Of a DNA stretch of 64,000 nt, positions 2,961-63,936 are shown one piece after another (positions within the stretch are counted from its first letter, which is position 1; each line of letters starts with the position of its first letter). The stretch is from positions 8,797,758 to 8,861,757 of the forward strand of contig NC_069134.1 of assembly GCF_026914265.1 (NCBI RefSeq), in the 5' to 3' direction. A model generated the notes under the pieces. The model was given only the letters and a program-made list of their open reading frames with translations. It ran no database searches and was not told the DNA's origin. A program made the translations under genes and the position numbers. The stretch comes from Mya arenaria (Eukaryota > Mollusca > Bivalvia > Myida > Myidae).

Positions 2961-4353
2961 ATGGCGGACAGCAAAGGTGAAAACATTCCATTGGAACAGG
3001 CAAACGGAAAACAAGAGCATGCACCGAAATTAGCCATGGACCATTATGTAGAATTGGACCATGAAACATTCACTAGACCTGGCGCTCAAATTTCAGACAA
3101 ACAAACATTTACAAATAAGAAAGGCGAAACAATATCTGGATATGCAGTCATTGTAGATTTCAGGAGACTTCTTCTGCTTGCGGCTGATTTAAAGGATCAT
3201 GGAATTATTCCAGGGGTAAAACAAAATTGTATTAAATTTATATTTGATTTTTATACATATATGTACATGCATGTACTAGCTGATTTTGAGATGGCGCATC
3301 ACCCACCTAAATTTCCAATCATCTTACTCTATCAATATGTCAAATAAATTTGTAGAGCAGATTACACCCACCAAAACCCAATGCACCATTTTTAACTAGT
3401 AGTGCCTAGTGGTTTAATGTTCCCCAGATGGCCGGGATATGGGCACAGGGTATGTACTAATACATGTAGTGATGTACCTGCACGGCAACACCTTACATAG
3501 GCACTGTAAGTCTGCAGGCTGCACATCATTTTCTAAAACTATGCTGCTTTAGTCATAGAATTAGATATTGAAAATTATCCCAGTGGAACATGCACTTTTT
3601 TATTTAATTCGTATACCTCTAACACTACACTTTCTCAGCTATTAAGGAGTCCTGTGCCTGAAGTTATCATTTCTTTGCGCTACTTTCATACCAGCAATCC
3701 AGTCTCTGGTCGAACTTTGTAGACTGTCAAGATGTTTTTGGAGTTTGTGCTTTTGTATGATTGCTTTCTAAAACTGACAGCCATCAGCTAAGAAGACATA
3801 CAAAGGACTTGACTCTGTCAGGAAGTTATTCATTCACATATAGTAAAACTCTAGGCCACAATTAAAAAATAGTTTGTTTGTTAGCTCTTTCCTTATCCAC
3901 ATTTTAAGGTGTGGGTATGTTTTCTTTTACTTTTTAATCCTTAATTCTGTAATGAAAAACTGAAAATTCATATGAACTAGAGAGGCTTAAAAAAATGAAA
4001 GTTGCATTGGAAACACAAAACAAATTGCGGCCCTATTATTAAGGTGGGTTATGAACTTTTCATAGATCACTGCAAAAAAACTCCTTTTCTATGGTCAAGG
4101 GATTGAAGTTGAAAAATTGAGGGTAATCAAATGGTGAAAATGACTTTATTTGCCAGCAAGTTTGTTTTTTCAGTGACATTAACTTTTTGTAGATCTATCA
4201 CTTACATGAATGTTCAGGTATCAAATCGTGACCTGCTGCATGCCTGTATCGGTTTGTACGATGTTTCGCTGTCCGAGATGACACCTGATGTTCTGTACTC
4301 AACTGTGTGTGAGAAGTGGGCACGGACAATCATTCTCGTCAGGGATCTCCATG
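2961..4353 (+). CDS. Exons 1-2: unrecognised N-terminal module of the GNAT-ART protein
   Basis: Exon 1 (2961-3215, 85 codons, phase 0) starts MADSKGENIP and ends GIIPG before a gtaaaa donor. Exon 2 (4218-4353, phase 0 in, phase 1 out) begins VSNRDLLHAC after a ttcag acceptor and ends RDLH before gtaaat. Residues 1-130 are mixed alpha/beta in character (VIVDFRRLLLLAADL, WARTIILVRDL). I do not recognise the family. Reading straight through the exon 1 donor extends the frame to 3347, but that extension is intron-like low-complexity sequence. Confidence 0.8.
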
Positions 4354-7300
4354 GTAAATTGCAATTTCTCAAATAGCTTAAGTCCCTTTTAACAGGATCA
4401 AGCTCATACACTTTTTTTATGTAAAAATTGTGCAAAATGATGTTTAAGCAAGTAATTTAAGTAAATGAAATATGATACTTATTACGGTTTTGCTTAAGAT
4501 GTTTTGAGTAATTGGGGCCAAATTATTATTCAATTTACAGTCATTTGCTACTTAATTATGATGATGTATTTTTTGTAGTGTGCCTTTTTTATTTACATGT
4601 AGATAAATTAAAAGCTTCCATCCCACTTATGATAATGTGTAGCATTTGTATTTAATAAACTAGATAAACTAAAATTATTGACTTTTTAAGAAACTCTGAA
4701 ACAGCTTTTAGTACTAGGGTGCGAATCAAATGTAAAATAGAAGTTCCAACAGTCCACCGTAACGAAGATGGCATCAATACAATTATGTATATGGACTAAA
4801 TTTGATACCACTGTATTTTCATATGAAAAGAGCTTGTTAATAATGTTTGAAATGAGCACAAACTTTCAAACCCTTTGAGGCTTCTCAGGTCAGTATAGTT
4901 TGGCTTCTATAAATTTGGATTTTGCCTACACATTTTAACAATTTCTTTATCAATGTATATAGAGAGAGAGTTTGTAAGTTGTTTGTCAAAAAACCTAATT
5001 TTCATGACTGTGTGGTAGTCTCGGAGAACTAACCATGATTGTGTTGCAGAGTGTTTGGACGAGTATGAGGGTCGACGTCAGCGTGAGCCGCGGGAGGAAA
5101 AGGAGGAAGTGGAGGAAGAGGAGGCCGGCAGTGTCAAAGGTCAATGGCATATTCATGATACAGTTTTGTTCTACTGAGTTGAGAATTATCGCCTATTAGA
5201 TCATGATAGATTTTTAGCTTGATTATTCGAAGAATAGGTGGGCTATACTACTCGCCCAAGCGTTGGCATCGGCGTCGGCGTCCGGTTCAAGTTTAAGGGC
5301 AAGTTGGGATTTTCACTTATAAGTCCAATACTCTACATTCAATTTACTTAATACTTCACGCAGTTGTTCAGGGCCATCACATGATGAAGTTAGATAACTC
5401 CATATTATTCTTTACACAGATTATGGCCCCTGATTGACTATGGAACTTAGGTTAAAGTTTTAGGGCAAGTTGGAATATTTATTAATAACTTCTATATCCT
5501 TTGTTAAATTGACTTATTACTTCACACAGTTGTTCAGGACTATCACACAATGAGGTTACATAACTCCATATTATTCTAAATACAAGTTATGGCCCCTGAT
5601 TGACTTAGGTTAAAGTTTTAGGGCAGGCTAAAGTTTTAGGGCAAGTTGGGATTTTCACTTAAAACTCCAATACCATTCATTCAATTGACTTAATACTTCA
5701 CACAGATGTTCAGAGCCATCACATAATGAGGTTAGATAACTCCATATTATCTTTTATACAAATTATGGCCCCTGATTGACTATGGAACTTAGGTTAAAGT
5801 TTTAGGGCAGGTTGGGATATTGTTTAATAACTTCTATACCCTTCCTTCAATTGACTTAATACTTCACACAATTGTTCAGGACCATCACCCAATGAGGTTA
5901 CATAACTCCATATCCTTAATACAAGTTATGGCCCCTGATTGACTTAGTTTTAGGCAAATAAAAGTTAAGGGCAAGTTGGGATTTTAATATAAAAAACTTC
6001 TATACCGTTCATCAAATGCACATAATAAAATTCAAAATTATTTACGACCATCTTACAGCAAGAAGCATAACTCTCTTTTAAGGCTCAATACAAATTATGG
6101 CCCTTGAATGTTTTTTTTTTGTTTTTTTAATTTCCTTTGAAAGGCATATTTGTATATTCTTAACCACATTTTCATAATGGGAAATCAAGTTATTTGAATG
6201 ACTTGTCATTGTTTGGGCGGGCTGGTGGGAGGGCAGCATCAAAGTCACCTTATGTATCGAATAATTTTAGTTAGGTTTGACATAAAGAGACCAAACTTGG
6301 TATTATTACATTGTAATTGTATTCTAAGTCAAAGCGGCGTAGTCGAGTCCGTTGTCTTATGACGGCTCTTGTTAGATCAAGTTCTAGTGTAAGATACAGC
6401 CAGAGAATGCCAAATATTTTTTGGATGCACCTTAACATGGATACACTATTTCCCACATCCCTTGAATCATGAAATGTAGAAAAAGATGAAGGGGCTCATT
6501 AGATGAAGGGGCTCATTAGATGAAAAAAAATAAAATTGAAAGATGAAGGGGCTCATTAGATGAAGGTGCTAATTATCAAATTTTAGTGTATGAAATAAGT
6601 GCTGTTTACACTGTCCAGAAAACCAACAAATCTGGAATTTCTAGTTATCAGATAAAAAAACAACAACCTGTTCATACATGTAGTGTTGGTGTGTAGTAAA
6701 TTAACATGCAGCTTGTAGTTTGCTATAGATTTTTGAATTTGTCACAGAAATGTTTGGTTTTCGATTGAATGTTTTAAATGAAACCCCAAATGGCCATGAA
6801 ATGTAACGTTGTATCCTGGTGTTGATGACAGGGAGTGAGATAGACGAGGATGTGTACGAAGAGGAGGAAGGGGCGAGCAGCAAGTTTGCAGAGGTGTACA
6901 GTGACACAGAATCAGAGGACGCCGATGAGGAGGATGAGTACGTTACCCAACATTGATCGTTAGGAGTTTGAATTCTAGGGAAATTTAGAGCAGAGGAATC
7001 ATCTTCTGTGGTTGCATACTTGGAATATATTTTGTGTTTCAAAATTTATCTGGCTTTAATAGATGAAACACTTGAAGACGCACTCTTACTCCCAAATAAG
7101 ATTTACCACAATTTATACAATTGTTTGAATACACCAAAAAGGATGAATAAATGTCAATGACAATGGTTCTTATGAAGGATACTATGTTAAATTTCAAAGA
7201 AAGGTGCAGAAAACACAGTATTTCTACCTTATGAGACGATAGTTGATCACAGTAAATCTTTTAGCACTCACCAATTAATTTATATTTTTGCATTTTCATC

Positions 7301-10300
7301 TATTAAATACATGGTTACAATCTTGTTATAAGTATTTAATATTTCCCATAAATGCATTATTTAGTAAGTAGTTAAACGTTTACACAATGTATCACTCAGA
7401 ATTTGTATTTGTTATACATGTGTATGTATTGATTTTGAATAAGAGTGTCACTTTAATAAAAAAATATTCTGATTTCTCCCAGCTAACCAGCCCTTATAAA
7501 CAACAGTTTAATACACCCACGTTACTTCAGAAATAACAGAATCATTGATCTCTAATATGAATTTAAATAGCCTATAGTATATATAACTTCATTTATACTC
7601 GCATGGGAAAACCCAGTTATGTTATTCCAGGTTACATTTTTTTTCTTTTGAGTTTGCAAATCTCATTACGCAAGATAGTCCCGTCAGTGTAAATCCGTTA
7701 GTGTAAATCCGTTAGTCCCGTCAGTGTAAATCCGTTAGTCCCGTCAGTGTAAATCCGTTAGTCCCGTCAGTGTAAATCCGTTAGTCCCATCAGTGTAAAT
7801 CCGTTAGTCCCGTCAGTGTAAATCCGTTGGTATTGGCGTTGATGTTGATTTCTCTTATGATAGACTTGCTCTTTTAGTGATGATGAGGAAGACTTTTCCA
7901 AAGGAATAAACACTTTCATCTCGAGTGTGACAGACCGGAGAAAAGCCCGTAAAACATGCGATGGACCCGTCACTGAAGACATTTTAGGCATTGAGAACAG
8001 AATTATTGGTTGTGCCACTTTTGAGAAAAAATATGTGTAAGTATTTTGTAAAACTAGATAAACAAATATTTAGAAAGCAAAACAATAATTGGAAGAGTGC
8101 ATGTATCTCTTACTCTTTTGTAAACCTGCTCATCTGGTTTCAGTGGAAACTTGTTATTCTCTGATGTTGTAGCTTTAATATATTAGCTTAATAACAATTT
8201 GTTAATAATGGCTGAATAAAAAAGTAAATAATTGCTTTATGAAAACAAGTTAATAGTAGCTTGATAACAATAATGATGATAATTATCTAATGGTACATGT
8301 ATGTTTTCAGTAACTTCAAGCCTTGTTTAGTTTAAACTCACACTTGTATGTATGTATATGTTCTTTTCTCAGGCAGGGGAAATATAAAAGGTTTGCTTTT
8401 TATGAAACTTTCCCCATTACACTGTGGAAACATTCAATTTAGCATGACCTTCAACGACAAAACAATTAACACTATAACGTTATTTTGGCAAACATATTTT
8501 GGTTTGCCATTCTTCCATAAGTGGAGCTCAGCGTTTTATAATGTTTTAGCTGTAAGTTATTAGTAAATAAGTATACAAGATTTGAAGGTTTCACAGTCAA
8601 ATGTTTTTGGTTTTTAAACTGTCTTTCAATGATAATTATATCTCTGCATATAATTATATTTCTGCATATAATTATAATTCTGCATATAATTATATTTCTG
8701 CATATTATTATATCTCTGCATATAATTATAATTCTGCATATAATTATATTTCTGCATATAATTATATTTCTGCATATTATTATATTTCTGCATATTATTA
8801 TATTTCTGCATATTTCCTCTGTTTTTGTTTCACTGTTTACAGTTTAGTGTATGTAAATACCAAACTTCAAAAACTTGTTCAATATTTAGATTGTCTGAAT
8901 CACTTACTGTAAGGTTTAATGTTTTGGTAGTTTCTATCTGATGAATTTCCCAGTTTAGGGCTTTATTTCAGAGTTTATGGTTTTATGTCATAAAATTGAA
9001 ACAAATTATAACTATTTTCACATTCTGATCCTTCTTCCATCAGATTATGCTACTGTTTGCAAATTAACTTAGCAATTCAAGGTTTGGAAGCATTGAATGA
9101 TTGTTAGTTTTGATTCAACTGCATCATCCATACCATGTTGAAGGACTTCACACATCAAAGTTGCCAACTGCCAGGCTTTGCAATTTGGCAAATGTTTTTA
9201 TTTTTAAATGGAACTAACTACTGAAGAGGCGAGCACATACCTTCGTAAAGCATCAATATATGTACATTTTGAATTGGTTTCACATCAACCAGCCAATTAA
9301 AGTGCAGCTTTAATTTATGCTTGCAAGAATCGGGAATAACTGTTCAAAGCCACTGTTGGTACGGTACAAATTGACCATCTCTTTAAAATGACATTTTGAT
9401 CAAGCTTTGTTAAACTTGATTGACGAGCCTGTTTCACTGAGTTTATTTGCAAAACAGTAGTAGAAGATATTTTATTGCAAGACTTTAAAGTACTGGCCCC
9501 AATTTCTCAAAACTTCTTAAGCTTAACTGACTTAAGCTGCTTATTTCAATAAGCCAAAATACATAGTTATAGTGATTTTTTATGAATGAAAAATGGTTTA
9601 TTGTGATAATCGTTACGATAATTCCTATTTAAAGTATTACAACTTTTAAGGAGTATATCAAACGCAAAATATTGAAAGACGAAAATAGTGGGTTTAGCTT
9701 AATCCTGTTATAAGGAACCTAAGAAGTTTCGAGAAATTGGGGCCTGTAGAAGAACTTTCATTGCAAGACCTTGAATGTTCCAACCCAACCCAGCCACAGA
9801 CTGACTAATCAGCCATTAGGTGTGCAAATACTAACAGCCACAAACCCTTCAAACATTGTTAATAGTCAAAATGTGATGAGGGCAAGTTCACTTTGTAACG
9901 CAAAGTTTGAAAATATCTATGAACATGATTAAAACGTGTATTGTGCCATTGTTTTGGTCACATGATTGATTTTTTTTAAAGTAAGGGCATGCAGAACAAT
10001 CTGATTTCTAGTATAAATCTCCCTAGCTCCAGGTTATGTGTGACTTCTGGTTTTCTGTTGTGTGGATAAATTGTTGTAGATAAACATGTTCTTTCAGTCA
10101 TTGTGGGTGACATCCTGTTCTTTATTTCCAGCAAACATAGGGACAGGGTGATTCATCTCACTATAGTCAGTGTTCGCAAACGATGCAGGGGCTTTGGAGT
10201 TGGCCGATACTTGCTATCAGTAAGTTTGAATGGTTTCCACTGGAAAAACTTATTGTTGTAATGCTCATTAGATGCTGTAGAATTTTATTTCAAGTTTCAT

Positions 10301-13300
10301 GTTAAAAAATGACATCTTTGAGATGGTGTGGAAAAACTATGTGGTAAATAATAGCTTTAAAGAATTTTAGTTATCACATTTTGTAAGGGTCATGCATTTT
10401 ATGAAAATATGCTGCGACAATTGAAAAAAAAGAATTTCATCCAATGGGCAAACTTAGTAATGTAAACCTACAGTATTTGTTTTATTTCCCATTTTCAGCA
10501 AGTGGTAGAGCCAAAAGTTGTTGGTAACTATGACGCGGTGGTTGTCCATGCCGACAATGAGGCGGTGGATTTCTTCCAGAAGTTTGGTTTCTCAGATGAT
10601 ATCGTGCTCAACAGTAGATGGAAGTAGGTCTCATGGTCTCATACCAATATACCAGGGATGTGATTTGTCCGCGGAATTCTGCGGATCTAATGGCCCCAGA
10701 GACCCCCCCCCCCCCCCCAAAAAAAAAAAAACCTGAAAAAAAATATTTGGTTGCTTTCAGTTGTTTAGGTTAATATTCCAGTTTGCTTCAAATTAAAAGT
10801 CAGGAGAGCCCTCAAAAGAGCTGCTAAAAAGCCATTTTTTCTTCTACAGTAGTGCACTTTTGATCCAAAGAGCACCCCTTTAACCCATGGCCGAAAATGT
10901 TTCAGCCCTCCAGCTGCCAGGTCAGTCACATCCCTGAATATGCTCTCAATAAGAAAAGCATTAGGAATTATTTGCGCACTTTAAAGTGCAATAGTTTTAT
11001 AAAACTGTAGGGAGCAATTTACTGAAAACCCATTACAAAAATATATATTATATATATTGTATATATTGCGATTCTGAACATTAAAATTTGATATTTCAAG
11101 TAAGCTATATTTAAATTTTGAAGATAACATACAGTCTCACATAAACAAGCATGTATTTGTGGTGTTCCAGAGAGCTAGCTGAACAGTTTACCAACTGCAC
11201 CTTGATGTGTTACCTGCCAGGGTTCTCAGGTCTGTGGATTTACATTTCTTCCATTTCAGTTTTCACGTATAAACCCTGTGGTCAGTTCCTCGAATATGAT
11301 GGGCATACCCTTAATTATAATTGTTTTCCACTATTGCAGGTCACCGGTTATTGAGTGCCATCAAAATTCCTGGTGTGGAGATGTTTGAACTGGAACAAGA
11401 GCTTCTAAAATGGTAAGGTGTCTTTCCTCCTTGTCATATGGACAAGTGGCCCTTCATCCTTGCCTTTCTTTGCAAGGTTCATAATAATTATGTCACATTT
11501 GACATGAACATTTTCCCTTATTGTTTAAAAGCCCTTATAAAGCATTATTTTACATTGTTTGCAAAGATGTGCAGTTTGATAGTTAATCATGTTGGTGATA
11601 TATGTCATAAGATAGATTCTGAGACAAAAGTTTCCAACATGATAAGACATGTTCAAACTCATGTCTATGCAGAACAGATGCCAAAATCGGGCATTACACA
11701 ACCTTCTTAAACACGAAGGAACAGATTTCACCAGAATGTTGTGTCACTGTTATGTAATGTATCTCAAAATATTTCTGCATTTTACTACAGAATTTAAGAC
11801 AAAATTGTTGAGAGTAACTTGAACTATTTATTAGTGGAATGTCATCACAAACTTCTGTGTGTATATTGAAAGAACAAAGTCTATACAACTGTTCAAATTT
11901 TCATATTATTGCTGTTTCTTTAAAACAGGCCAACTTGACATACAACCTTTTTAAAGAAGCCTAGGTCTTCAGCAGCAACAAAGTGTCTTGCAAAACTATT
12001 TGTGTTTGCCATAACTTGTATATCATTTCAGATATCAACATATTCATTATATGCATATGTCATGTATAAGGGATGTTTGTAAAGTTTGAGGACAGCAAAT
12101 TCATTCCACCAGTTATAAATGTTCACAATTTAACATAAACAACATATTGTATGATATATTGGGAAGATGTATTGAACATTTAAGCTGAAAATACTGATTG
12201 GAAGTCCTTATATGTGTAGTTTTTACCTACCACCCCTTTCAGCACGGAGGATTTTGACATGTCACGGCGTCATGTAAAAAAAGCAATTTATTTCAAGGAC
12301 TGTAATCTACCAATTTCTTCACTATGTTGTATCTTATTATGTGAACGTCAAGTTCAAGGCTTTTAACCTTTTTATTTTCACCCATGAGCTTCTCAATCCC
12401 ATAAAGTTCTAATACCGTTTATGATCGCATTCAAATTTTGTACAATGTTGCAAGAGGTATATGGGTAATTAAATGTAAATTTCATGTTGAGTTTTGTTTT
12501 GTATGAAATTCGTATTATCATGCAAACTTTGTTTTTAGTATTTAACAACTGAAAAAAACAAAGCGCGAAGCGCTGAAAGACTATCTGCGGGCAAATATGT
12601 GAGAGTTGCAAATTTTATTCACCCATGGGAATGGGTGAAGGGCACATAGATAAAAGTGAAAATGTGCCGAGGGCCAAGAGCGCTTGTGCCCAAACTGGGC
12701 GAGGAAGCAAACATATCTGTATCTATTATATGGCGTCTTGTGTCATTTTGTTTATGTAAATGTCACTTCAATCGTCGTAACACCCCTTCCGCATGTATAT
12801 AATGTTACAATGCACGCCCCTTTCAATATTTTCTAAAGGTTTTTCGTTGCTTTGATTAAATATTATACGATTGGAAAATACAATACATCATATATATCAT
12901 TTCCTTTTATAAACATACATGTTTTGTTTAAGGAAAATCATTTTTTTTACAAACAACTTCAGCAATAATTCCATTCAAAATGCACAGCGTATCACTTCAG
13001 TCGACGTATCCCCATGTATTTAAAGTTACAATGCATGCCCCTTTCAATCGCTTCTAAAGGTTTTTCGGTGCTTTGATTAGATATCATACGTAAGGCAAGT
13101 TTTCAAGGGCAGTAATGTCAGGTGTGTCCATGCTTCCCGGTTCATTGTTTTGAGTGGAAAACGTCCTCGATTCGGTGAGTATTATCACTGTTTTCTGTAT
13201 GTTTCAACGATAATTTTTCACAATACAATAGACTGCCCTTTGTTTCATTTAAAATGGTGTAGTGATTGAAAAGTTATCTTCGATTTACGTCTTCATTTTA

Positions 13301-16300
13301 AGCAAAATGTTGCCTTCCGACGTAGCATATATGACGTAATATATCACGTGGTATACATACACTACCTGTACAAAATTACCCTTCTTAGACGTTGTATAGT
13401 ACATACTACATATACATGAATTTTTTTAAAAATCGACGCCTTTTATTAGTTATTTTAATGTGCCATAGATCTTCCAGATTTGGGATGAACCTAGGTTCTA
13501 AAAATGTACAGAATGAACCAGCAAGCATTTTCGTAAATGAGGCGATTTAACTCCAAAATTGGCTGTCTGCATTCGAAAAAAAACAATAGCAATACTGTTT
13601 TTGCCCAGAACAAAGCATCGGGTGGGGTTTGTACGCAAGAAAACGGTATTAAATAGTTTTTTTGAAGCAAAAAATGCATTGAGTGAGTCGGGAAGCCTAG
13701 TAAGAACTTGCATTGTTTTCACGAGATATTTTAATACAGACATTATTTTGATCTAAAACAAGCGTCTTCGTAAACGAGCAATTGCTCTTCATTCGGTGCA
13801 CAAGTTCGTTTCTAAAAATTATCGTTGAAACATATAGAAAACAGTGGTAATACTCACCGAATCGAGGACGTTTTCCACTCAAAACAATGGACCGGGAAGC
13901 ATGGACGCACCTGACATTACTGCCCTTGGTTTTATGAACATACACATTTTAATTGTTTAAGGAAAATGATTTTATTTTTACGAGCAACTTTAGAAATAAT
14001 TCCTATCAAATGCAGAGCTTATCAGATGGGTCGTTTTCCCGCGTTGAGGACAAACATGTGGTAGTTAATGTATGTAAACTATTTTTAGAAAATCTGACAG
14101 TTTATGATGCTGAAACTATTTTTAGATTATCGGAAATTGTCTGTTTTAAGAATGGGAATATGATTGTGCTTTTTCAAGTTTTGTTGATAAATAAATGTTA
14201 TTTATGTGTAACGTAAGTATCTGTGTAGAAATAATACTAGTGGTGTTATGAAGGCTTCGCACACTTTAGGTGTTTTACAGGTTAAATCTGAACTACTTTG
14301 CTTCATCATGTATGAATGACTCAATGTCGTATCAGGGCATGTGTGTTAGAATAAATTGAAAGCCTTATGTCCAACAATGGCAAGAATACACCAGAACGAA
14401 GCTACTACGCAAAAAAATTGAAAACATCTTAATAGAAAAGTATACGCCTAAAAATCATAGAATGAATAGTATTTTGTAATTGTATAGCAGGCAAATTATA
14501 GTATTTGAAGCATTAGCAACGCGAAACCTGATATACAACTATTTTGACTTCCAGACAATCATTTTTGTTTCTTATCTCATAAAACGGTAATATCAAAGAT
14601 ACACCATTACAAATAAGCGTGCCTCAGGATCACACCAGCTAGGTTATAATAACAAACCATGCAGGCGATGGGACACTTGCGGTCGGTTATACATCTTGGG
14701 CTAAACTCAGAGTGGATATCAGTTTGTTAACTGCCTACCAGAGCCACCATTATTTTGACCCATTAATCTTGTAAATATAACGATCTACAAATAGTTATGT
14801 CCTGCTAAAAATAAAACGCCGGGATACAGAAATACAGCGCGGAAATAGCCGACCAAAAAGAACTCATACTCCGAACGCAATACAACTAATCTATTTTTAT
14901 GATTTTGTCGTCATTCTGCTAAACATAGAGCGCATTGAGACAAAAAAAAATGGGTTTAAACGAGATAAATAGAAGTAGTTCTTTGGAATTTGCGGTCTTA
15001 AGACTACCTGCGCGCATGCGCAGATAGTCTAAAAATCAAAGTGCTTCTTGTTCCATACTCTTAGTTTCCTTAGCAATGTTTACCTAAATACTATATGGTC
15101 ATATCTACATAATCTGTGTCTTTAATTATCCGAAATAGGATTTTTTTTTTGAAAATTTAGATCAGCATTACATAACTTGTATATTGATATTTTAATAAAC
15201 AAAGCCTGTTCAAGAACTTTACAAACAGCCGTCCTATATGTATGATTATGTACATAATTCCCCTTGATTCTGAACTAAATATTTGTTGGTCAAGGAAGAA
15301 TAAAGTGCAAGTGCTAGCATCATATGGCACTGCTCTAACATTTGAATGACCTGCTGTTGTTGGCGGTGGCATGAGATAGATACTTGTGTGGGTAGTTTGC
15401 AGGCATGCTGCGTGACATCTTGTTAATTTTACAACCTTCTTACCAGTATTTTTGTTTGTTCTGTTTCCATGGTAACAGGAAGGAGAAGACATTGGAGGTG
15501 TACCAGCAGCAAGTCACGTGCATGATGCGCATGAAGCACGAGATCATTCAACTCAAATACACCGTAAGGGAGCTTTTGTCTTCATTTAGTTTTACAAAGA
15601 GTAGCTGCTTTCTCTCATCTTTAGGCCTAACATTTATAATTTTGTTGGATAAGATTTTTATGATCCCTTTTAAAAAAAGAGGGCACAGGTATGCAGATGT
15701 TTCATGGTAGGTCAGTCTGCTTGACCACACAATAGCTCATTAAGGAGTTGATGACAGTGAAACTTCAGTGGTAGTTTTCCATTAAAGCATGTATTTGAGT
15801 TCAGAAGGTCTAAAGTCAAAGTCACATCAATACTTTGTAAACACAATTATTGCAAACAGTTTGATACTAGGAAGATAACATTTTAGTTGTAGTTTGTCCC
15901 TTGCCAGTGGACTACTACTATTATTTTTTCGGGTCAGTAGGTAAAAGGTAAAGGTCACTTATCCATGCTAACACTGTCAAATGATTTAAACTAGGACCAT
16001 AAAACTTAGATGGTAGGTTGCCTTTGGCCAGTAGATGACCCCTATTTTTTCTTGGGTCAGTAGGTCAAAGGTCACAGTCAACAGTTTTTAGCTCAACTAT
16101 TCGAAGAATATGGAGAGCTATACTACTCACCCAAGCGTCGGCGTCTGCGTCTGCGTCGGCGTCACCCCTTGGTTAAGGTTTTGCAAGCACACATAGGTTA
16201 ATATCTCAGCAACTACTTGAGGTATTGCATTGAGACTTTATACAATGGTACTCAACCATCCAACCTACTTAATTAACCAAGTTTGGTAACTCTACTTTGC

Positions 16301-34300: not shown

Positions 34301-37300
34301 CTAGATATCCATTAGAGCTCGGTTCCTTTCGAAAACCAGCCAGATTTGCCCATGCATGCCTGGATTATGGGTCTTGAAAGTATATAAAATGCTATTTTAA
34401 GCTAAGTCTATTTTTAGCCTAGACTGCATGAGCGAAGTCTATTTTTAGCCAAGTGTACATGTAAATTCGCAATTGCTTGTGAAGGTTTGTTCAAATTATG
34501 CCCCTGGGATCATTACTGCCTTCCCCCCCCCCCCCCCCCCCCCCCGGGATATTGGTTGTTCAAATTATGTTCAAAACTGGCACTGCCTTGGGTGTCACAA
34601 TTTTCCCTGAGACTTATTTAAGAAATATTTTCAAAATCTTCTTGTTTCAGACCACAAGGCCCATACCTTTGATATTTGTTGTGGAGCATCATATGATGCA
34701 ATTGAAAACATTTGAAATAATGCCCCTTGGGCAAAAGCTGGCCCCACCCCTTTTGACTTGCTTATTAATTTTTAAAGCTACAGTAATGAAATTTTGACCA
34801 TGTGAACGGTTTTGCAAACAAGCATTAATGTTGTTCTCGGATGTCCTTGACTTTGACCTTTGACCGACTTTTTATTTTTTAGGCTACAGAAATGAAATTT
34901 TGACGATGAGTACAGTTTTAAAAGCAAATATTTCTTACCCTCAGAATACCTTTACTTGGCAAATATTAAAATAGTTCATGCAACTAATCTGCTTACAACA
35001 CTTCCTGTCCTCAGATGTTGAACGTGCAGCGTTTTCAGCTAACCCAAACACTAGAAGTGAACTATATATTTGTTGCCTATTACTCAAACCTACATGCTCT
35101 GGATTGAAAATGACCACAAGAGCCATGCCAGTAGAGCATAGGCCCTTTTGGGCCTCTTGTTGTTGGTGAGTATACTGATGCTAATACTTACTGTTAATGA
35201 ATTAATGTTAAAAACCCTATATGATATAAGTTGTTGATTGACCATTTTGGTAAGATCGATGGTTTCAAAATTATTAAATCGGAATTCTTCCAGCGATACA
35301 ATTGGTACAATAAAGCACAATCACTTATGTATTATGGTGTTCTAAAATGAAGCTACATCACATTGCCAGCACAGCATAGGCCCTTACTAACAGTTTAAGA
35401 AAAATGCATAAAATATCAATTTTTGAACTTATATATATAAATCTGTGGTCAGCAGTCTTTTATCTTTGGTTTGCAGATATTTACGTACGCATAAATTTGC
35501 TCTTTCCAAGACAAAAATAAAAAAGTTGTCAAAACGTTCAATCTGTGAGAGTGCAGCTTTAAAATACAGGTCTAGTTCTACTTTGGTTACAATCCATATA
35601 TGTAAAATGGAGTTTAGTTTGCCATTACCGATCCAGGCAGCATCTGGGGGCATTTGCCACTGGGGTATGACAGTTCTAGTTCACTTCATTTGTTTCTTGA
35701 ATGAAAATGTTTGAATGAATAATAAGCCTAAATATTGTTTCAGATTTTACATGTGGGGAGTTTGGAAAGGGCCTGTACTTCTCCAAGTTTCCGTCCAAAG
35801 CTGCTCAGTTTTCAAAGGTAAGCAAGTTCATCCACGGGGGCAGGGGTGTCTCTGGTTCTGAGTAAGGCCCTGTACTTTTGGGAAATTGCTTGAGAAGAAT
35901 TGTTTGAACTCTCAAGCTAAATTCAAAATTTTGGAAAATTGCATGATTTTTATGAAAATATCATAAAGGAACAGGATTAAGACCCATTAGCTACATTTTT
36001 TATGTAGTAAAAATTATAACATTTGAAACTTTTGAAAAAATACTTTGAGGGAAACAAAACTATCACAAGTTAATGTCAGGACCAGGATTCTCCTTTTGGG
36101 TCTGTAGTCAGTGACCTTATCAACTATGCCACTTGCTATTTTCCTTGCTACTGTTTTCAAATGAACAAAGCATCTCAAGTCCTTGATACATTGATGCATT
36201 GAATGTTGCCCGAATCTGTCAATTAAATTTCTAATTAAGTGAAATATTTATAGCCTGTTGATGGACTTCCAACTTCAAAGAAAACCAACTGTAGTCATCA
36301 GCGATTTGGCATATACTTGACATATTTCACACCTTCTAATGAGGCAAGCTCATAACACCGCAATGCGTCACACAGGGACAATTTGTAATGGTTTGAAATC
36401 GTATTCAATTGTAGCTTTAAAAAAGACAGCACAGTAACAAACAAATATTTTTGAAGTGCTGAAATCTTACTGCTCGAAACCGCTTTTGGGGCAGTACAAA
36501 TAACCTGTCTCTTTGTTGCAAACGACATTATGAACATGCTTTCATTGATCAATTGCAAACCATAGTAAACAAATAGTCTATACTGCGGTGACAGTGCATG
36601 CTATCAGCTACTGGGGTAAAAAGGAGTGTTCAATTCTACCTTTAATTTATGCTCACAAAGACAGCACAGTAACAAACAAATATTTTTTAGGTGCTAAAAT
36701 CTTACTGCTCAAGACCACTTTTCGAGAAGTACAAATCAACAGTCTCTTTGTTGCAAAGCGACATTGTGAACATGCTCTTATTGACTGACTAATGAGTATC
36801 TTTTGCTAATTTCAATTGCAAACCATAGTTAAATAATCTTAACTGCAGCGACATTTCTTCCTATCAGCTAGTGGAGTAAAAAGGAGTGTTCAAGACCGTG
36901 ATTACAAAGAAATAATATTGCCAATTACTGAATAAACAGTAATATTACCCTTACTCAAATACCTATTATATAATGTCTCTCTAAAATAGCATTATGATAA
37001 GGATTTACAAATACGCAATTAAAGGTGCGAAGTACAATGTTCTTCCTTGTTACATTTCATTCTCATTGCTCAAGGACCACATGTTTTTGGCAAAAGGGCT
37101 TATCACCCTTCTTATTTCATATATGAATAGGTCCTTTTTGCAGTCATTAAGCATGTGACTATCAATTATCATGTTATTATTTTGTTTTCTTGTTTGCCTC
37201 ATTTAACATAACTCACAACTAAGCCATTTCAAATGAGTCAGTAATTGATATCTTACTTAATTGGTAAATGCTGTATTTTATGCAGGTATGAAATTTTATA

Positions 37301-40300
37301 CTTCACAATGACTTGCATGGTTTTTAGCTCGACTATTCGAAGAATAAGGAGAGCTATACTTCTCACCCAAGCGTCAGCGTCGGCGTCACCCCTTGGTTAA
37401 GGTTTTGCGTGCAAGCACACATAGGTTAATATCTCAGCAACTACTTGAGGTATTGCATTGATACTTTATACAATGGTACTCAACCATCCAACCTACTTAA
37501 TTAACCAAGTTTGATAACTCTACTTTGCATTTAATGCAAATAATAGGCCTTTATTATTTGACTTAGAAATTCTGGTTAAGGTTTTGCGTGCAAGCACACA
37601 TAGGTTAATATCTCAGCAACTACTTGAGGTATTGCATTGAGACTTTATACAATGGTACTCAACCATCCAACCTACTTAATTAACCAAGTTTGATAACTCT
37701 ACTTTGCATTTAATGCCAATAATAGGCCTTTATTATTTGACTTAGAAATTCTGGTTAAGGTTTTGCGTGCAAGCACACATAGGTTAATATCTCAGCAACT
37801 ACTTGAGGTATTGCATTGAGACTTTATACAATGGTACTCAACCATCCAACCTACTTAATTAACCAAGTTTGATAACTCTACTTTGCATTTAATGCCAATA
37901 ATAGGCCTTTATTATTTGACTTAGAAATTCTGGTTAAGGTTTTGCGTGCAATCACACATAGGTTAATATCTCAGCAACTGCTTGAGGTATTGCATTGAGA
38001 CTTGATACAATACTACTCAACCATCCAACCTACTTAATTAACAAAGTTTGATAACTCTACTTTGCATTTAATGCAAATAATAGGCCTTTATTATTTGACT
38101 TAGAAATTCTGGTTAAGGTTTTGCGTGCAAGCACACATAGGTTAATATCTCAGCAACTACTTGAGGTATTGCATTGAGACTTGATACAATGGTACTCAAC
38201 CATCCAACCTACTCAATTAACCAAGTTAGATAACTCTAGTTTGCATTTAATGCAAATAATAGGCCTTTGTTATTTGACTTAGAAATTCTGGTTAAGGTTT
38301 TGCGTGCAAGCACACGTAGGTTAATATCTCAGCAACTGCTTGAGGTATTGCATTGAGACTTGATACAATGGTACTCAACCATCCAACCTACTTAATTTAC
38401 CAAGTTAGATAACTCTAATTTGCATTTAATGCAAATAATAGGCCTTTATTATTTGACTTAGAAATTCTGGTTAAGGTTTTGCATGCAAGCACACATAGGT
38501 TAATATCTCAGCAACTGCTTGAGGTATTGCATTGAGACTTGATACAATACTACTCAACCATCCAACCTGCTTAATTTACCAAGTTAGATAACTCTAGCTT
38601 GCATTTAATGCAAATAATAGGCCTGTATTATTTGACTTAGAAATTCTGGTTAAGGTTTTGCGTGCAAGCACACATAGGTTAATATCTCAGCAACTACTGG
38701 ATGAATTGCATTGAGACTTGATACAATGGTACTCAACCATCCAATCTACTTAAATAAGCAAGTAAGATAACTCTAGTTTGCATTTAATTCAAATAATGGC
38801 CCCTTTTTATTCAACATAGAAATTCTGGTTAAAGTTTTGCATGTAACCACTTTTCAGTCAATGCTTCAGCAAAATTACATCATGTGTTGCATTGGAACTT
38901 TACACACAGGCTCCCAACCATTTAATCTTCTTATTAAATCAAGAAAGATAACTCTATCTTTCATATTATATAATTTTTGCCCCTTTATTATGCGACTTAG
39001 AAATTCTGGTTAAGGTCTTGCATGTTAGCACACATAGGATAATATCTCAGCAACTGCTTGATGTATTGCATTGAGACTTTATACAATGGTATTCAACCAC
39101 CCAACCTAATTGAATAATCAAGTTAGATAACTGTGTTTTGCAAATAATGGCCCTTTATTATTACACTTAAAAATTCTGGTTAAAATTTTGCATGTAACCA
39201 CATTTATGTTAATATCTCCACACATCATGTATTGCATTGAAATCTAATCTAACAGTGATCCATGCATGTTTCGCCAAAACTTTTCAATCCTTACACTGAA
39301 AAGCGGCGGAATAGTCGAGCGCGCTGTCTCTGTGACAGCTCTTGTTATTGAAATTCTTTGCTTTGTCATAAAAAAGTTTCCTTTTGCAGGATGGTAATTT
39401 ATTTATTTTTTATCGTCTTCTGTAAATCAGGATGGAACTTAGGCATATTAAGATCAGTTTCATTATCCCCTGTCAAATTAAAAGTTTCGGGAGGGGTATA
39501 CTGTTTTGAAGTTGTCCATCGATCCGTCTGTTCTTCTGGCCCCACATAAAATGGTACCATATTTTGTAGTGATTGGTCAAATAATGTTCTATTGTCTGAA
39601 CGGAAGGTTTCAGGAAGGGGATAATGTTTTGGCTCTGTTTATTGCCTTTTGCCTTCTACCCTTCCGTCTGCTCGTCCGCCACATTTTTTTCTGTTGGGAA
39701 CCATACCTTGGTAGGGATTGGTCAGATAATATTTAAACTTCGTCAGCTTGTTCCCTTTGATGAGGTTTTCCTGCACTCTTCTTTTGCCATTCTGTGATAA
39801 GGCAAAGCCAATGATGTAAACCTTCTGTGTTTTTTTTTCCAGCTTGGTTCATTGCTTCGTGTGGAGGTGGGTATCGGTAAAGTGGAGACAGTTGTCAAGC
39901 AGGATCGCACACGGAAAGCACCTTCCGCTGGACATGACAGTATCATTGTAAGTAATAGAACATGTAAGATTTATTCTTTATGATTAAGAGGGGAGGAGTG
40001 AGCGTAGAGAGTGAGCCCTTGTTATTCATTAAGATAAAACCTTAAATGTTCTAAATGTCTTAGATTATAAACTGTTTTCAACAGGCAGGGAACCAATTAG
40101 GACATCATGTTTTTAATTTTAACAACAAATCTCAATTAAGCATGGTACTTACTGAGGGTTGATAGGCAATTTTTCTGACTGGAAATGCAGGTTAAAATTT
40201 AAGTACAGGCAAGAAAAATAGAAAAATAGAAAAATTTTGATCAAAAATATACTTCAAAATCTGATGACTGATTAAGGTCTTCTGAGCACAAAGCAAAGAT

Positions 40301-41425
40301 TGTCAGCCTTAGGAGTAGGAGTTACTAGACTGTTTATGTCTTTGCACAATGTCTATGAATGTCTATGAATTTTTGAAATATCACTTTTAATAAGTATGTT
40401 CATCTGTATATTCGTCACTAACCCTGTCAAAATTGTGTTATTGTTATAGGTACGTCATCATAACATGTAACAAAATCGTTTGAAGAACAAAGGAACATTA
40501 AGTTGCCTTAAAGAAATGAAGATATTTCATGTTCATGCTTTTACTTAAGCAACAAGTGATTTAAGAACCTGTCAAAATGATTCATGCTTTTTGAATTGTA
40601 CACATAAAAAAAGTTTTTTCCCCCACTTACTTCAGTAAAGGAATACTGTAATTGTCCTATTAATCGTACATGCCCTAGTAGACGCTCCAATGGTATTTAT
40701 TGTGGGTCTTTTTTCTGATTTTTCGTCAACTCTAAAAATGCAATTTATTTCGATGAAAAGCATTCCATTGGCCGCCACTTTATCACTCCTGCATTTACGG
40801 AAAAAACATACTCTATTGTATACTATGACAGGTGCGATAAAATTGATGAAAGATTTGTTTTGATATATTGAAGCCATGTGTTCAGTGGACCATTTAAGTG
40901 GTTTACACAGGAGGGTGTGTATACAGCTACGATGCAGAGGATACTGATTTTTTTCCATGTTTTTTACTCAAATTTAGCATTTTTTTAAAAGTTTCTGGAT
41001 GGGGAAAAATGATATTTTTTAGAGTGCAAGGCAAATAATGCATTACAGTTAAAAGGACACTCACAGGGTGCGTTTGAAAGGACATTTATGGTATTCTATA
41101 TTGTTGAAACTTATTTGCTTACCCTCATAAATATGCTTATATTTAAAGTTAATTTAAACAAAATAATTATTGGTCCGTAAGGATGGGTTGTTTCACAGAA
41201 GTTGATGATTTTTTTCAAGGTACATTTTGTTCACATAGTAGAACATAAAATATGTGAAAAATGTTTATGATTTATTTTGTAAATGAACATTCCATCATAT
41301 TTCAGACTCCGGGAAGGCTTTCTCACATGCTTGGTCAGGGAGATGCGTCCATGAACCAGGAATATGTTGTGTTTGATGTCAATCAAGTCCTCCCACAGTG
41401 CTTGCTCTATTATGAGACCAGCTAG
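2961..41425 (+). CDS. GNAT acyltransferase / PARP-like ADP-ribosyltransferase fusion protein (18 exons, 692 aa)
   Basis: Exons: 2961-3215, 4218-4353, 5050-5139, 6832-6937, 7878-8036, 10132-10219, 10499-10623, 11171-11229, 11340-11412, 15479-15563, 17652-17727, 21750-21809, 24174-24320, 25971-26140, 27217-27367, 35744-35817, 39843-39947 and 41306-41425. All junctions are GT-AG, the phases agree throughout, and the total is 2079 nt with the stop. The start is the first ATG of exon 1, in the context aacATGG. Predicted order: N-terminal module (1-130), acidic hinge (131-205), GNAT domain (about 235-340), coiled coil (about 350-480), PARP-like catalytic domain (about 545-692). By family knowledge, GNATs transfer acyl groups from acetyl-CoA and PARP-type domains transfer ADP-ribose from NAD+. 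Substrates are unknown. No signal peptide or membrane segment is seen, so it is probably cytosolic or nuclear. I know of no named protein with this architecture. Confidence 0.88.
4361..4517. mobile_element. Short MITE of the GGCCCCAATTTCTC family, degenerate
   Basis: The left end (aatttctcaaatagcttaag) and right end (cttaagatgttttgagtaattggggcc) are imperfect inverted copies and match the better-preserved element at 9495-9744. The left end lies within 10 bp of the exon 2 donor (4354). Confidence 0.6.
5050..6937 (+). CDS. Exons 3-4: acidic hinge of the GNAT-ART protein
   Basis: Exon 3 (5050-5139) and exon 4 (6832-6937) encode about 65 residues dominated by Glu and Asp, with an EEKEEVEEEEAG run and a Ser/Glu/Asp stretch (YSDTESEDADEEDE). 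The acidic run continues into the first codons of exon 5 across a phase-2 junction (ga|t). This is probably a disordered linker that separates the N-terminal module from the GNAT fold. SDTESED-like sites fit the casein kinase 2 consensus (inference). Confidence 0.82.
5211..6373. mobile_element. HINE/Helentron-like non-autonomous element 1 (intron 3)
   Basis: It starts TTTTTAGCTTGATTATTCG and ends tagtcgag..ccgttgtcttatgacggctcttgtt, where CCGT/ACGG can form a short hairpin just before CTCTTGTT. The interior holds three to four degenerate repeats of a unit containing gttaaagttttagggcaagttgggat. Ends and layout match the elements at 16085, 21991 and 37321. Confidence 0.65.
7679..7829. repeat. 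23-bp tandem repeat upstream of exon 5
   Basis: The unit cccgtcagtgtaaatccgttagt is repeated about 6.5 times with almost no variation, ending about 50 bp before the exon 5 acceptor at 7878. Confidence 0.9.
7878..11412 (+). CDS. Exons 5-9: GNAT acetyltransferase domain
   Basis: Exons 7878-8036, 10132-10219, 10499-10623, 11171-11229 and 11340-11412. The core is visible as a strand IIGCATF, then VIHLTIVSVRKRCRGFGVG. In the latter, R268-G-F-G271-V-G273 fits the Q/R-x-x-G-x-G/A pyrophosphate-binding loop of GNAT motif A. A helix (RYLLSQVVEP) follows, then the motif B pattern HADNEAVDFFQKFGF, with N298, A300 and the G308-F309 turn. The tyrosine often found before the GF turn is Phe304 here. The remaining strand (CTLMCYLPGF) and a helix lead into the coiled coil. 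Family placement is firm; the acyl acceptor is unknown. Confidence 0.88.
8636..8815. repeat. 18-bp AT-rich microsatellite-like array
   Basis: About ten copies of tctgcatataattatatt. It gives spurious open frames on both strands (ISAYNY and MQKYNY repeats). Confidence 0.9.
9495..9744. mobile_element. MITE with GGCCCCAATTTCTC terminal inverted repeats
   Basis: The left end ggccccaatttctcaaaact and the right end agtttcgagaaattggggcc are near-perfect inverted copies, followed inward by tcttaag/cctaaga. It lies between exons 5 and 6 and is non-coding. Confidence 0.85.
10700..10740. repeat. Homopolymer run C then A
   Basis: A run of more than ten C residues is followed directly by a run of A residues. 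This is low complexity and a likely site of assembly length error. Confidence 0.8.
12540..15035. mobile_element. Repeat-rich block in intron 9, possible composite element
   Basis: A motif agactatctgcg(g/c) occurs near 12580 and, inverted, near 15015-15030. The latter is itself a palindrome around gcgcgcatgcgc. A large foldback element (13104-13928) lies between them. Neighbouring segments at 12780-12900 and 13010-13090 are diverged direct repeats (caatgcatgcccctttcaat and ttctaaaggtttttcg). Whether this is one nested transposon or several is unclear. Confidence 0.4.
13104..13928. mobile_element. Foldback element with about 115-bp terminal inverted repeats (copy 1)
   Basis: The left arm 13104-13218 starts caagggcagtaatgtcagg. 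The right arm 13814-13928 is its inverted copy at roughly 95% identity. The interior contains half of a family A MITE (cacgtggtatacatacacta near 13340-13357). The segment 13255-13928 reappears inverted at 48445-49102. Open frames on both strands over 13490-13950 belong to this element and have no recognised product. Confidence 0.85.
15479..24320 (+). CDS. Exons 10-13: coiled-coil linker of the GNAT-ART protein
   Basis: Exons 15479-15563, 17652-17727, 21750-21809 and 24174-24320. The sequence is rich in Glu, Lys, Gln and Leu with heptad-like spacing (KEKTLEVYQQQV, HEIIQLKY, FLKALVEDNEMLKTEKMLAE, ELIDSLQRELEKMDLRI). This suggests a long helix or coiled coil over about residues 350-480, which could dimerise the protein or space the two catalytic domains. 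Exon 12 is only 60 nt and was placed by phase (g|ag in, g out) and by continuity of the heptads. Introns here are 2 to 4 kb. Confidence 0.8.
15650..16084. repeat. Fragment of a dispersed ggtcaaaggtcac-type repeat
   Basis: Diverged pieces of the sort ggtcagtaggtcaaaggtcacagtc occur several times, similar to the array at 19371-20004. No coding sequence is seen. Confidence 0.45.
16085..17210. mobile_element. HINE/Helentron-like element 2 with 179-bp core repeats (intron 10)
   Basis: It starts TTTTTAGCTCAACTATTCGAAGAATA and ends ggaatagtcgagcgcactgtctctgtgacagctcttgtt. The end holds the subterminal inverted repeat GAATAGTCGAGC and a CTGTC/GACAG hairpin just before CTCTTGTT. The core is about 5-6 tandem copies of a unit near 179 bp that begins ggttaaggttttgc (starts at 16171, 16346, 16525). 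Confidence 0.75.
17211..19260. other. Intron sequence with exon 11; otherwise nothing recognised
   Basis: Apart from exon 11 (17652-17727), this is AT-rich sequence with scattered short open frames that show no family signature. Confidence 0.5.
19262..20004. repeat. CGGT microsatellite plus 145-bp tandem repeat
   Basis: A (cggt/ctgt)n tract at 19308-19361 is followed by an exact 145-bp periodicity, with ggtttccgatcaataacttg starting at 19373, 19518, 19663, 19808 and 19953. Copies are very similar, so the array is young. The head (atgcccccttttgaaaaaag) looks like the 5' end of another dispersed element. Confidence 0.92.
20005..21749. other. Intron 11, no recognised feature
   Basis: AT-rich sequence with no recognised exon, RNA gene or repeat family before exon 12 at 21750. 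The short open frames are not supported. Confidence 0.5.
21991..22880. mobile_element. HINE/Helentron-like element 3, diverged (intron 12)
   Basis: It begins ttttagctaaacaatatggaatgctatactactcaccc and ends tatagtcgagggcactatcctacaacagctcttgttt, matching both ends of element 2 with decay. The core holds degenerate repeats with atcacacaattaggttacataactc. Confidence 0.6.
22881..24173. other. Rest of intron 12, no recognised feature
   Basis: AT-rich sequence with A and T runs. I see no exon or clear repeat boundary between 22881 and the exon 13 acceptor at 24173. Confidence 0.45.
24868..25955. mobile_element. Foldback element abutting exon 14
   Basis: The left end near 24880 carries atatagcatagataggacgcaggcaaaa. 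The right end near 25870-25955 carries aaaggacgcaggcaattttt and, inverted, gtgcgtcctatgcatgatata. The ends are therefore complementary around GGACGCA. The element stops about 15-20 bp before the exon 14 acceptor (25970). It is about 1.1 kb with no recognised gene inside. Confidence 0.55.
25971..41425 (+). CDS. Exons 14-18: PARP/tankyrase-like ADP-ribosyltransferase domain
   Basis: Exons 25971-26140, 27217-27367, 35744-35817, 39843-39947 and 41306-41425. The blocks run in PARP order. MYFCGTLEHPERIKDILRQGF corresponds to the LxHGT...I...GF NAD+-binding strand. FGKGLYFSKFPSKAAQFSK corresponds to FGxGIYFA..SKS.QY. Next come LLRVEVGIGK and a KAPSAGHDSII block like the tankyrase APPGHHSVIG. NQEYVVFDVNQVLPQCLL corresponds to the NEYIVYD..Q..P.YLL C-terminal strand. 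Of the H-Y-E triad, Tyr605 and Glu672 are present, but the His position holds Cys573. The domain is at the exact C-terminus, as in tankyrases. Glu would permit chain formation in principle; the loss of His argues for altered or lost activity. Confidence 0.87.
26346..26807. mobile_element. Foldback MITE, family A, copy 2, with target duplication
   Basis: Ends cagtgtgtgtataccacgtg and cacgtggtatacacacactg are inverted. The flanks carry a 5-bp direct repeat ATTGT (26341-26345 and 26808-26812). It lies in intron 14. Confidence 0.88.
26980..27010. mobile_element. Possible truncated 3' end of a HINE-like element
   Basis: ggtattcgctcagcaacgctcttgttc resembles the CTCTTGTT terminus of the other elements, but no matching 5' end was found. 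Confidence 0.25.
27368..29125. other. Start of intron 15, no recognised feature
   Basis: Low-complexity AT-rich sequence. Short open frames such as 27502-27687 have no family signature. Confidence 0.45.
29130..29205 (+). repeat. tRNA-derived SINE head (relic)
   Basis: gtggttaagtggtaag resembles a pol III A box, and ggtttgagcatcact about 40 bp further on resembles a B box (GGTTCGAnTCC) with changes. The 41-bp satellite follows about 70 bp downstream. It is not a functional tRNA gene. Confidence 0.4.
29270..30345. repeat. 41-bp tandem repeat, about 26 copies
   Basis: The unit ggcccataccttctggctga...aaatccaaccaaatcacacca recurs with a 41-bp period (starts at 29296 and 29337) and 5-15% divergence between copies. 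Confidence 0.92.
30902..31325. mobile_element. Foldback MITE, family A, copy 3 (diverged)
   Basis: The left end tagtgtgagtataccacatg and right end cacatggtatacgcacactg match copies 1 and 2, with the CACGTG core mutated to CACATG on both sides. Interior blocks (gtttgtcaaagtgtttta and others) also align. Confidence 0.82.
32227..32611. mobile_element. MITE with perfect 21-bp terminal inverted repeats
   Basis: acagtaaaactgcgatcgttc at 32227-32247 is exactly inverted at 32591-32611. The interior has further imperfect inverted similarity (ccctcgaggtca occurs twice). TACAGT-like ends recall Tc1/mariner-type MITEs, but no clean TA duplication is visible on the right. Confidence 0.85.
33239..33803. 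mobile_element. Possible solo LTR
   Basis: The segment starts TGTCATGGC and ends GTTACA, carries a TATA-like ctatataaac near 33397, and has a raised GC content. It includes a pair of near-repeats (gatgtcgcatagctcg and gacgtcggatagctcg). No target duplication or adjoining gag-pol is visible, so this is only a candidate. Confidence 0.3.
33824..35163. mobile_element. HINE/Helentron-like element, second family, with 170-bp core repeats
   Basis: The 5' end is TTTTTTTAGCTCTACTGGCC. Near the 3' end is the exact inverted subterminal repeat GCCAGTAGAGC (35127-35137), then a GGCCC-TTTT-GGGCC hairpin (35141-35154), then TCTTGTTG. The core has three tandem copies of a unit of about 170 bp (gtaaacaattg starts at 33892, 34062 and 34231). 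A C homopolymer lies near 34524. Confidence 0.75.
35450..35580. mobile_element. Partial copy of the MITE seen at 56244-56570
   Basis: The block tttgcagatatttacg...tgctctttccaagacaaaaat...ttcaatctgtgagagtgcagcttt matches one arm of the foldback element at 56244-56570. It is one-ended here and lies in intron 15. Confidence 0.6.
36070..36136 (-). repeat. Possible tRNA-derived SINE relic
   Basis: On the minus strand gtggcatagttgataaggtcactgactacagaccc is followed by aaggagaatcctgg. This recalls the A-box and B-box region of a tRNA-derived SINE head. It is short and degenerate. Confidence 0.3.
36418..36895. repeat. Direct duplication of about 240 bp
   Basis: 36418-36655 and 36659-36895 align from aaagacagcacagtaacaaa to aaaaaggagtgttcaa with about 85% identity. 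It lies in intron 16 and is non-coding. Confidence 0.8.
37321..39346. mobile_element. HINE/Helentron-like element 4 with about ten 179-bp core repeats (intron 16)
   Basis: The 5' end is TTTTTAGCTCGACTATTCGAAG. The 3' end has GGAATAGTCGAGC, which inverts GCTCGACTATTC over 12 bp, then ctgtctctgtgacag (hairpin) and CTCTTGTT. Core unit starts at 37395, 37574, 37753 and 37932 give an exact 179-bp period. The same family as element 2, but with nearly twice as many core units. Confidence 0.85.
39484..39740. repeat. Fragment of a dispersed mollusc-type repeat
   Basis: Two related blocks (gtttcgggaggggtatactgttttg and gtttcaggaaggggataatgttttgg) resemble the head of the element at 19262. No gene is supported here before exon 17 (39843). 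Confidence 0.45.
39948..41305. other. Intron 17, no recognised feature
   Basis: AT-rich sequence. A minus-strand open frame at 40632-40958 has no family signature and no splice support. Confidence 0.45.
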
Positions 41426-48318: not shown

Positions 48319-48444
48319 CTGGAAAGACATTAATTTTAGGTCGTCTGTTCTTTGAATCAATTAAGCCCAGTTATTGTCACAGCCTTGGTGTCGTCTTAAA
48401 AGGCTGTGTCAAAGTGCAAATTATAGAAAGCATTCAAGATATTT

Positions 48445-63883: not shown

Positions 63884-63936
63884 CTGAAAATATGTGGACG
63901 GATAGATTCGTTTTATTTATTTACTGTATTCTCAAT

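Follow-up and report, generated by a model that had tools for sequence, protein, structure and literature searches.

Could a single animal polypeptide use acetyl-CoA as well as NAD+, both of them main metabolic cofactors that inform protein modification? The question is raised by a gene of a bivalve, the soft-shell clam Mya arenaria, at positions 2961 to 41425 of the window analyzed here (the whole stretch of 64,000 nucleotides from contig NC_069134.1, to which all coordinates refer), for which an original prediction had proposed a GNAT acyltransferase joined to a PARP-like ADP-ribosyltransferase (ART). To our knowledge, no animal protein with domains for both cofactors has been described. We found that the GNAT-ART fusion is conserved from hexacorals to molluscs and that residues in both active sites are altered: the motif I His of the ART is present in 0 of 57 proteins and the Glu of GCN5-type GNATs in 0 of 72, so that the predicted use of both acetyl-CoA and NAD+ is not established, and the sequence does not allow either a GNAT or an ART activity to be claimed. 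The finding goes beyond the original prediction in that the family is old and widespread; both kinds of domain are known, and what is new is their combination and a C-Y-E pocket in an animal protein.

A single gene encodes the GNAT-ART protein

The gene was rebuilt independently from the raw sequence by a coding scan and a listing of splice sites, followed by direct reading of the sequence. This led to the same model as the original prediction, namely 18 exons on the plus strand with the start at 2961 and the stop at 41425, comprising 2079 nucleotides and encoding 692 residues. GT..AG borders were found at 17 of 17 introns, and the GC content was 0.473 in coding as compared to 0.341 in intron sequence. 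Isoform X2 of NCBI gene LOC128214809 from M. arenaria (667 residues), which begins at Met26, is 100% identical and covers 96% of the model, and proteins from Dreissena and Mactra show 77% identity over 100% and 96% of its length, respectively. Since the NCBI isoform is identical and bivalve proteins match along the length, the model is not a chance frame; the ATG at 2961 is supported by a MAD... start common to Dreissena and other members. Scanned against Pfam, the assembled protein matched GNAT at residues 204-311, with Acetyltransf_10, _7 and _1 all above cut-off, and PARP (PF00644) at residues 550-690, with 41.7 bits against a curated cut-off of 26.7.

Two adjacent genes misread as one are ruled out by the 17 canonical introns, by the NCBI model joining the same exons and by relatives in several phyla that are collinear across both domains; the same introns, NCBI model and collinear relatives rule out a chance fusion in a single genome. 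Two full-length relatives, P0012 (703 residues) and P0019 (701 residues; P-numbers label retrieved proteins), lie on contigs of 2513 and 2876 bases, lengths that would fit spliced mRNA, the source not saying that they are cDNA. A second copy was not seen in a protein-versus-genome search of the 1.2-Gb assembly (18 contigs), in which 18 candidates were scored and all 17 matches fell inside LOC128214809. A second annotation of the Mya gene, P0007 (MAR_036662, 528 residues), reads the region of exons 15-16 otherwise and thereby loses the ART; it was dropped, since other species conserve the reading used here.

Distribution of the family

Three protein searches, each scoring about 7990 candidates, retrieved 74 different proteins (the second search added none), which form 65 groups at 95% identity. 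These are counts of retrieved proteins and not of species, and no loss is claimed for insects, nematodes, tetrapods or sponges. The 74 proteins come from bivalves, gastropods, a chiton, nemerteans, a brachiopod, annelids, echinoderms, a hemichordate, hexacorals (Oculina, Acropora, Desmophyllum, Stylophora and Nematostella), spiders and loaches. The source names of the members in Nematostella, sea urchin and oysters are 'uncharacterized' or domain-based, none of the five members scanned against NCBIfam had a model match at cut-off, and no description of a GNAT-PARP fusion was found in the open-licence literature searched for the family or the architecture, in line with the earlier remark that no named family has this order. 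The text of a classification of eukaryotic GNATs contains neither 'PARP' nor 'ADP-ribos' (PMC7790372), and the text of PMC10450202 does not contain 'GNAT'.

By alignment coverage, 55 of the 74 proteins span the N-terminal domain, GNAT, coil and ART, four span GNAT, coil and ART, and 15 are without ART. Both domains are truly carried by 58, as the coverage count of 59 includes P0007, the misread model of the same clam gene. Among the 15 ART-less proteins, five spider and two loach proteins are possibly real ART-less forms, as far as the retrieved gene models go, and in our judgement the other rows look like fragments or truncated models. The spider and loach proteins join the family via the whole-protein profile (E-values of 1e-101 to 5e-65), and the GNAT scores of the four scanned (P0068, P0069, P0072 and P0074) are below the Pfam cut-offs. 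GNAT and coil are kept in P0072 and P0074 (Triplophysa) as well as in P0068-P0071 and P0073 (spiders), and the N-terminal domain is also kept in P0068, P0069, P0072 and P0074. The name of P0074, si:dkeyp-50b9.1, is of the zebrafish type, which suggests that a zebrafish gene may exist. When 51 members were scanned against Pfam (E-value of at most 0.001), Acetyltransf_10 was detected in 50 and PARP in 42.

Phylogenetic trees of the family are only roughly species-like. In the tree of the N-terminal domain and GNAT, Ambulacraria was recovered with a support of 0.915; the two fish proteins, on long branches, stand beside spiders and not with deuterostomes, the annelid Owenia lies inside the nemerteans, and limpets stand beside mussels. 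The ART tree was poorly resolved and did not recover echinoderms (0.721). Cnidaria read as non-monophyletic in both tree outputs, which we ascribe to the placement of the root. The simplest reading would be one fusion before the split of cnidarians and bilaterians, followed by separate losses of the ART. Repeated fusion is not favoured, a ranking that was made without a formal topology test.

The ART pocket

The ART is encoded by the last five exons: exon 14 (25971..26140, plus strand as for all exons; residues 487-543) covers a linker and the ART start, exon 15 (27217..27367; residues 544-594) motif I, in which Cys573 replaces the catalytic His (YFCGT), exon 16 (35744..35817; residues 594-618) motif II, GKGLYFSK with Tyr605, exon 17 (39843..39947) the ART core, and exon 18 with the stop codon (41306..41425) motif III, QEYVVF with Glu672. 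In one structural comparison, which covered the ART, the domain showed the ART fold and the matches were filled by tankyrases; together with the PARP match, this bears out the tankyrase-like C-terminus of the original prediction. HMMER aligns the family segment LYyCgs with MLFHGS of tankyrase, which places Cys573 at the position of the tankyrase His.

Residues were counted in the 57 proteins selected by a match to the motif II pattern in place of all 74 rows, as the Cys counted at motif I in the spider rows is a misalignment. Thus left out were 17 rows (P0007, P0019, P0026, P0048, P0049, P0050, P0055, P0062, P0065, P0066 and P0068-P0074), of which P0026 ends within the ART and P0019, although missed by the pattern, has a real ART with C-Y-E. 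Motif I shows Cys in 53 proteins, Ala in three, a gap in one (the truncated Elysia model P0047) and His in none. The Ala residues belong to three sea slugs, namely Elysia crispata, E. chlorotica and Plakobranchus (P0030, P0032 and P0033), and the family as a whole does not therefore require a catalytic Cys. The Tyr of motif II is kept in 55 proteins, with His in two nemertean proteins, and the Glu of motif III likewise in 55, the two gaps being models that lack that stretch (P0042 and P0063). The residue aligned with PARP1 Ser904 is Ala in 56 proteins and Gly in one, and that aligned with PARP1 Tyr907 is Phe in 52, His in three and Tyr in two. Despite these changes, 13 pocket columns, chosen by us from the PARP1 structure, had a mean entropy of 0.48 as compared to 1.62 for the ART core (39 non-redundant ART members), and only one of 20000 random column sets was equally conserved. 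The pocket entropy being far below that of the core, the ART pocket is under constraint even though the His is missing.

The highly conserved pocket columns, the Glu and Tyr kept in 55 of 57 proteins each, and the Pfam scores above cut-off for both PARP and GNAT would suit a protein that writes two modifications, its GNAT acetylating and its ART ADP-ribosylating substrates that are shared or linked, and Cys573 functionally replacing His. We regard this as unlikely, because no member has the His, the Ala of the three slugs does not allow for a family-wide catalytic Cys, the equivalent of Ser904 is Ala in all but one protein, and the Glu of GCN5 is absent from the GNAT. Moreover, work cited in the part of PMC7955679 covered here found PARP1 activity to be substantially lower once its His was replaced by Ala, and the human triads tabulated in that part include none with Cys. 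Taken together, the residues lean away from an ordinary ADP-ribosyltransferase.

At the other extreme, the ART could be degenerate and serve only as a structural or protein-binding part, as in the inactive PARP13, leaving the GNAT as the sole functional unit. The spider and loach models retrieved have no ART, motif I is Ala in three slugs, and the mean pairwise identity is higher for the GNAT (0.57) and the N-terminal part (0.54) than for the ART (0.47; 54 rows, including the spider rows with misaligned motif I). A purely structural role, however, does not predict that the pocket columns, Glu672 among them, are far more conserved than the remaining ART, and we consider this the least probable of the readings.

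The GNAT domain, N-terminal region and long helix

The GNAT is encoded by exon 5 (7878..8036; residues 196-249), which holds the end of the acidic region and the strands preceding the P-loop, exon 6 (10132..10219; residues 249-278) with beta4, in which H257 is found at the position of the GCN5 Glu, and the CoA P-loop R268-G273, exon 7 (10499..10623; residues 279-320) with HADN (295-298) and FFQKFGF, and exon 8 (11171..11229; residues 320-340) with the GNAT end (CTLMCYLP). The landmarks named earlier are thus in place, RGFGVG being residues 268-273 and N298 the N of HADN. The best PDB sequence matches of the domain are GCN5/PCAF, albeit remote (best E-value about 1e-4). The Mya P-loop R268-G-F-G271-V-G273 follows the pattern Q/R-x-x-G-x-G/A, and among the 74 proteins the first position is R or Q in 73, the middle Gly is kept in 61 and the last in 73; as a set, these columns were equalled in conservation by 597 of 20000 random column sets. 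In the sequence alignment, the column of tGCN5 E122 holds His in 45, Gln in 21 and Tyr in five of 72 aligned proteins, with one gap and no Glu. The column was placed with MAFFT in two modes, and there is no gap between it and the P-loop; a single-sequence alignment disagrees locally, being shifted in the P-loop with Ile opposite E122, and the family alignment is preferred.

With both the ART His and the GNAT Glu replaced across the family, cnidarians included, and the ART pocket residues conserved, the protein might be a pseudoenzyme twice over, a two-ligand sensor or scaffold that would read acyl-CoA and NAD+ (or ADP-ribose) and signal via its coiled coil. In GCN5 this Glu is the confirmed general base, according to the part of PMC4964394 covered; the same part gives a conserved Glu base for 36% of characterised GNATs, so that its absence is no proof of an inactive GNAT. 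Many GNATs work without the Glu. Thirteen of the 74 proteins do not keep the middle Gly of the P-loop, so CoA binding may be altered in some lineages. On balance, a protein devoid of catalysis appears improbable, to about the same degree as one that writes both modifications.

Upstream of the GNAT, exon 1 (2961..3215; residues 1-85) carries the start codon, with similar starts in relatives, and part of the N-terminal domain, of which exon 2 (4218..4353; residues 86-131) encodes the conserved LLHAxxxLYD...KWARTIxLVRD. Between this domain and the GNAT (residues 131-196) lie an acidic linker (exon 3, 5050..5139; residues 131-161) and an acidic stretch, FAxVYSDTESE, which the family conserves (exon 4, 6832..6937; residues 161-196). 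For 12 family N-terminal segments, no match with an E-value below 0.12 was obtained in Pfam, nor one below 0.55 among PDB sequences, which agrees with the earlier report of a region without assignment; the best explanation is a conserved alpha/beta domain outside known families by sequence. Downstream of the GNAT, the coiled coil that had been predicted ahead of the ART was found as a long predicted helix of residues ~340-438, which is probably a coiled-coil oligomerization rod. It starts in exon 9 (11340..11412; residues 340-364), runs through exons 10 (15479..15563; residues 364-392) and 11 (17652..17727; residues 393-418) and ends in exon 12 (21750..21809; residues 418-438), followed by a partly helical linker in exon 13 (24174..24320; residues 438-487).

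Proposed function

The explanation we prefer, with about even chances of being right, is that of a single-copy, anciently fused animal protein in which the GNAT acylates and the altered ART tunes or targets it or binds a ligand. The protein consists of five parts, i.e., an N-terminal alpha/beta domain, an acidic linker, a GCN5-like GNAT, a long helix and a C-terminal tankyrase-like ART. Following this, we propose that the GNAT arm would bind acyl-CoA via its largely retained P-loop and probably acylate a protein lysine or another amine, with His in spiralians, or water in the Gln lineages, standing in for the Glu. In the ART arm, strong constraint would maintain a pocket of the NAD type, made up of G, Y, E and the columns around them; as Cys takes the place of the NAD-anchoring His, this arm is more likely a transferase of weak or altered activity, or a module binding NAD+, ADP-ribose or protein. 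We purely infer the regulatory link by which it may tune or target the GNAT arm. The absence of the ART in the spider and loach models retrieved, provided that this absence is real, would be in keeping with a module assisting a core of N-terminal domain, GNAT and coil.

Several points weigh against this explanation, in which binding and activity of both arms are read from sequence. The kept Glu and Tyr argue for catalysis more than the role of a reader would need, and part of the conservation of the pocket columns may reflect the core of the fold. The precedent, plant AtPARP3, is imperfect: its change of His to Cys together with Tyr to Val goes with loss of activity and of NAD+ binding, and with H-Y restored binding was regained and activity was not, as described in the part of PMC6701155 covered; AtPARP3 thus also lost the Tyr that the clam family keeps. 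In the same part, AtPARP1 changed to C-V-E is inactive and still binds NAD+, which also makes the precedent imperfect. Additionally, the P-loop set of the GNAT is only moderately conserved, as the random column sets and the changed middle Gly indicate, the spider and fish members fall below the Pfam GNAT cut-offs, and their loss of the ART rests on gene models.

A more far-reaching proposal, which we put forward tentatively and rate as scarcely more probable than either the double writer or the double pseudoenzyme, is a eumetazoan-wide family in which one coiled-coil rod carries a GNAT and an ART with consistently non-canonical sites (C-Y-E for H-Y-E; His or Gln for Glu) as a two-cofactor sensor, where acyl-CoA as balanced against NAD+ (or ADP-ribose) would set whether and where a target is modified or bound. 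The presence of the fusion in cnidarians and bilaterians includes tractable marine animals (Nematostella, sea urchin and oysters), and the family-wide change of His to Cys in an otherwise strongly conserved pocket offers a sharp test of the purpose of the PARP His.

Other features of the window

Downstream of the GNAT-ART gene lies a small cluster of EF-hand genes on the minus strand. The stretches 50000-51400 and 53158-54558, each with EF-hand exons, form a repeat at an offset of 3158 that is 100% identical over these bounds, which is either a recent duplication or an assembly artefact, and further diverged EF-hand exons are found at 61210-63910. Tandem arrays of a 32-bp unit occur at 49099-49773 (21 copies) and 62284-63172 (28 copies); because these keep plus-strand frames open, long spurious open reading frames (up to 327 and 350 residues) result. 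Other tandem arrays, with units of 41-179 bp, include those at 130-1029, 5284-6027, 16182-16960, 29283-30325 and 37394-39218, the last four of which sit in introns of the GNAT-ART gene; a 179-bp unit is common to 16182-16960 and 37394-39218. Another intron holds an inverted repeat at 13104-13928, with arms of 115 nucleotides that are 97% complementary and 595 nucleotides apart, possibly a transposable element; an open frame similar to the one there recurs at 48365-48676.

Comparison with known systems

Tankyrases (TNKS/PARP5) are defined by ankyrin repeats and a SAM domain before the ART. They and the other H-Y-E ARTDs have His at motif I, whereas the clam family has Cys or Ala; moreover, the clam protein is fused to a GNAT, and neither ankyrin nor SAM was among the eight Pfam families listed for it up to an E-value of 1. 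GCN5/PCAF (KAT2) proteins, which are defined by a C-terminal bromodomain, share with the family an alignable P-loop, the ADN motif, YF/FF and the W...TLM segment. The similarity is only remote. The family has His, Gln or Tyr for the general-base Glu on beta4, and no bromodomain was among the same eight Pfam families.

Plant PARP3 (clade 1D; AtPARP3) resembles the clam family in having Cys for the motif I His while keeping the Glu (PMC2964712; PMC6701155, in the parts covered). Contrarily, it has Val instead of the Tyr everywhere except in moss, according to the part of PMC2964712 covered, whereas the clam family keeps the Tyr; the BRCT, WGR and PRD/HD domains that the covered part of PMC6701155 gives for it are not among the Pfam families listed for the clam protein, which has a GNAT instead. 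LRRC9 and TASOR-type proteins are similar in that they are large multi-domain proteins with ART-like domains and altered triads. In LRRC9, however, most of the triad is gone, and the Pfam PARP model misses it (PMC7955679, in the part covered), whereas the clam family matches that model and keeps both Glu and Tyr.
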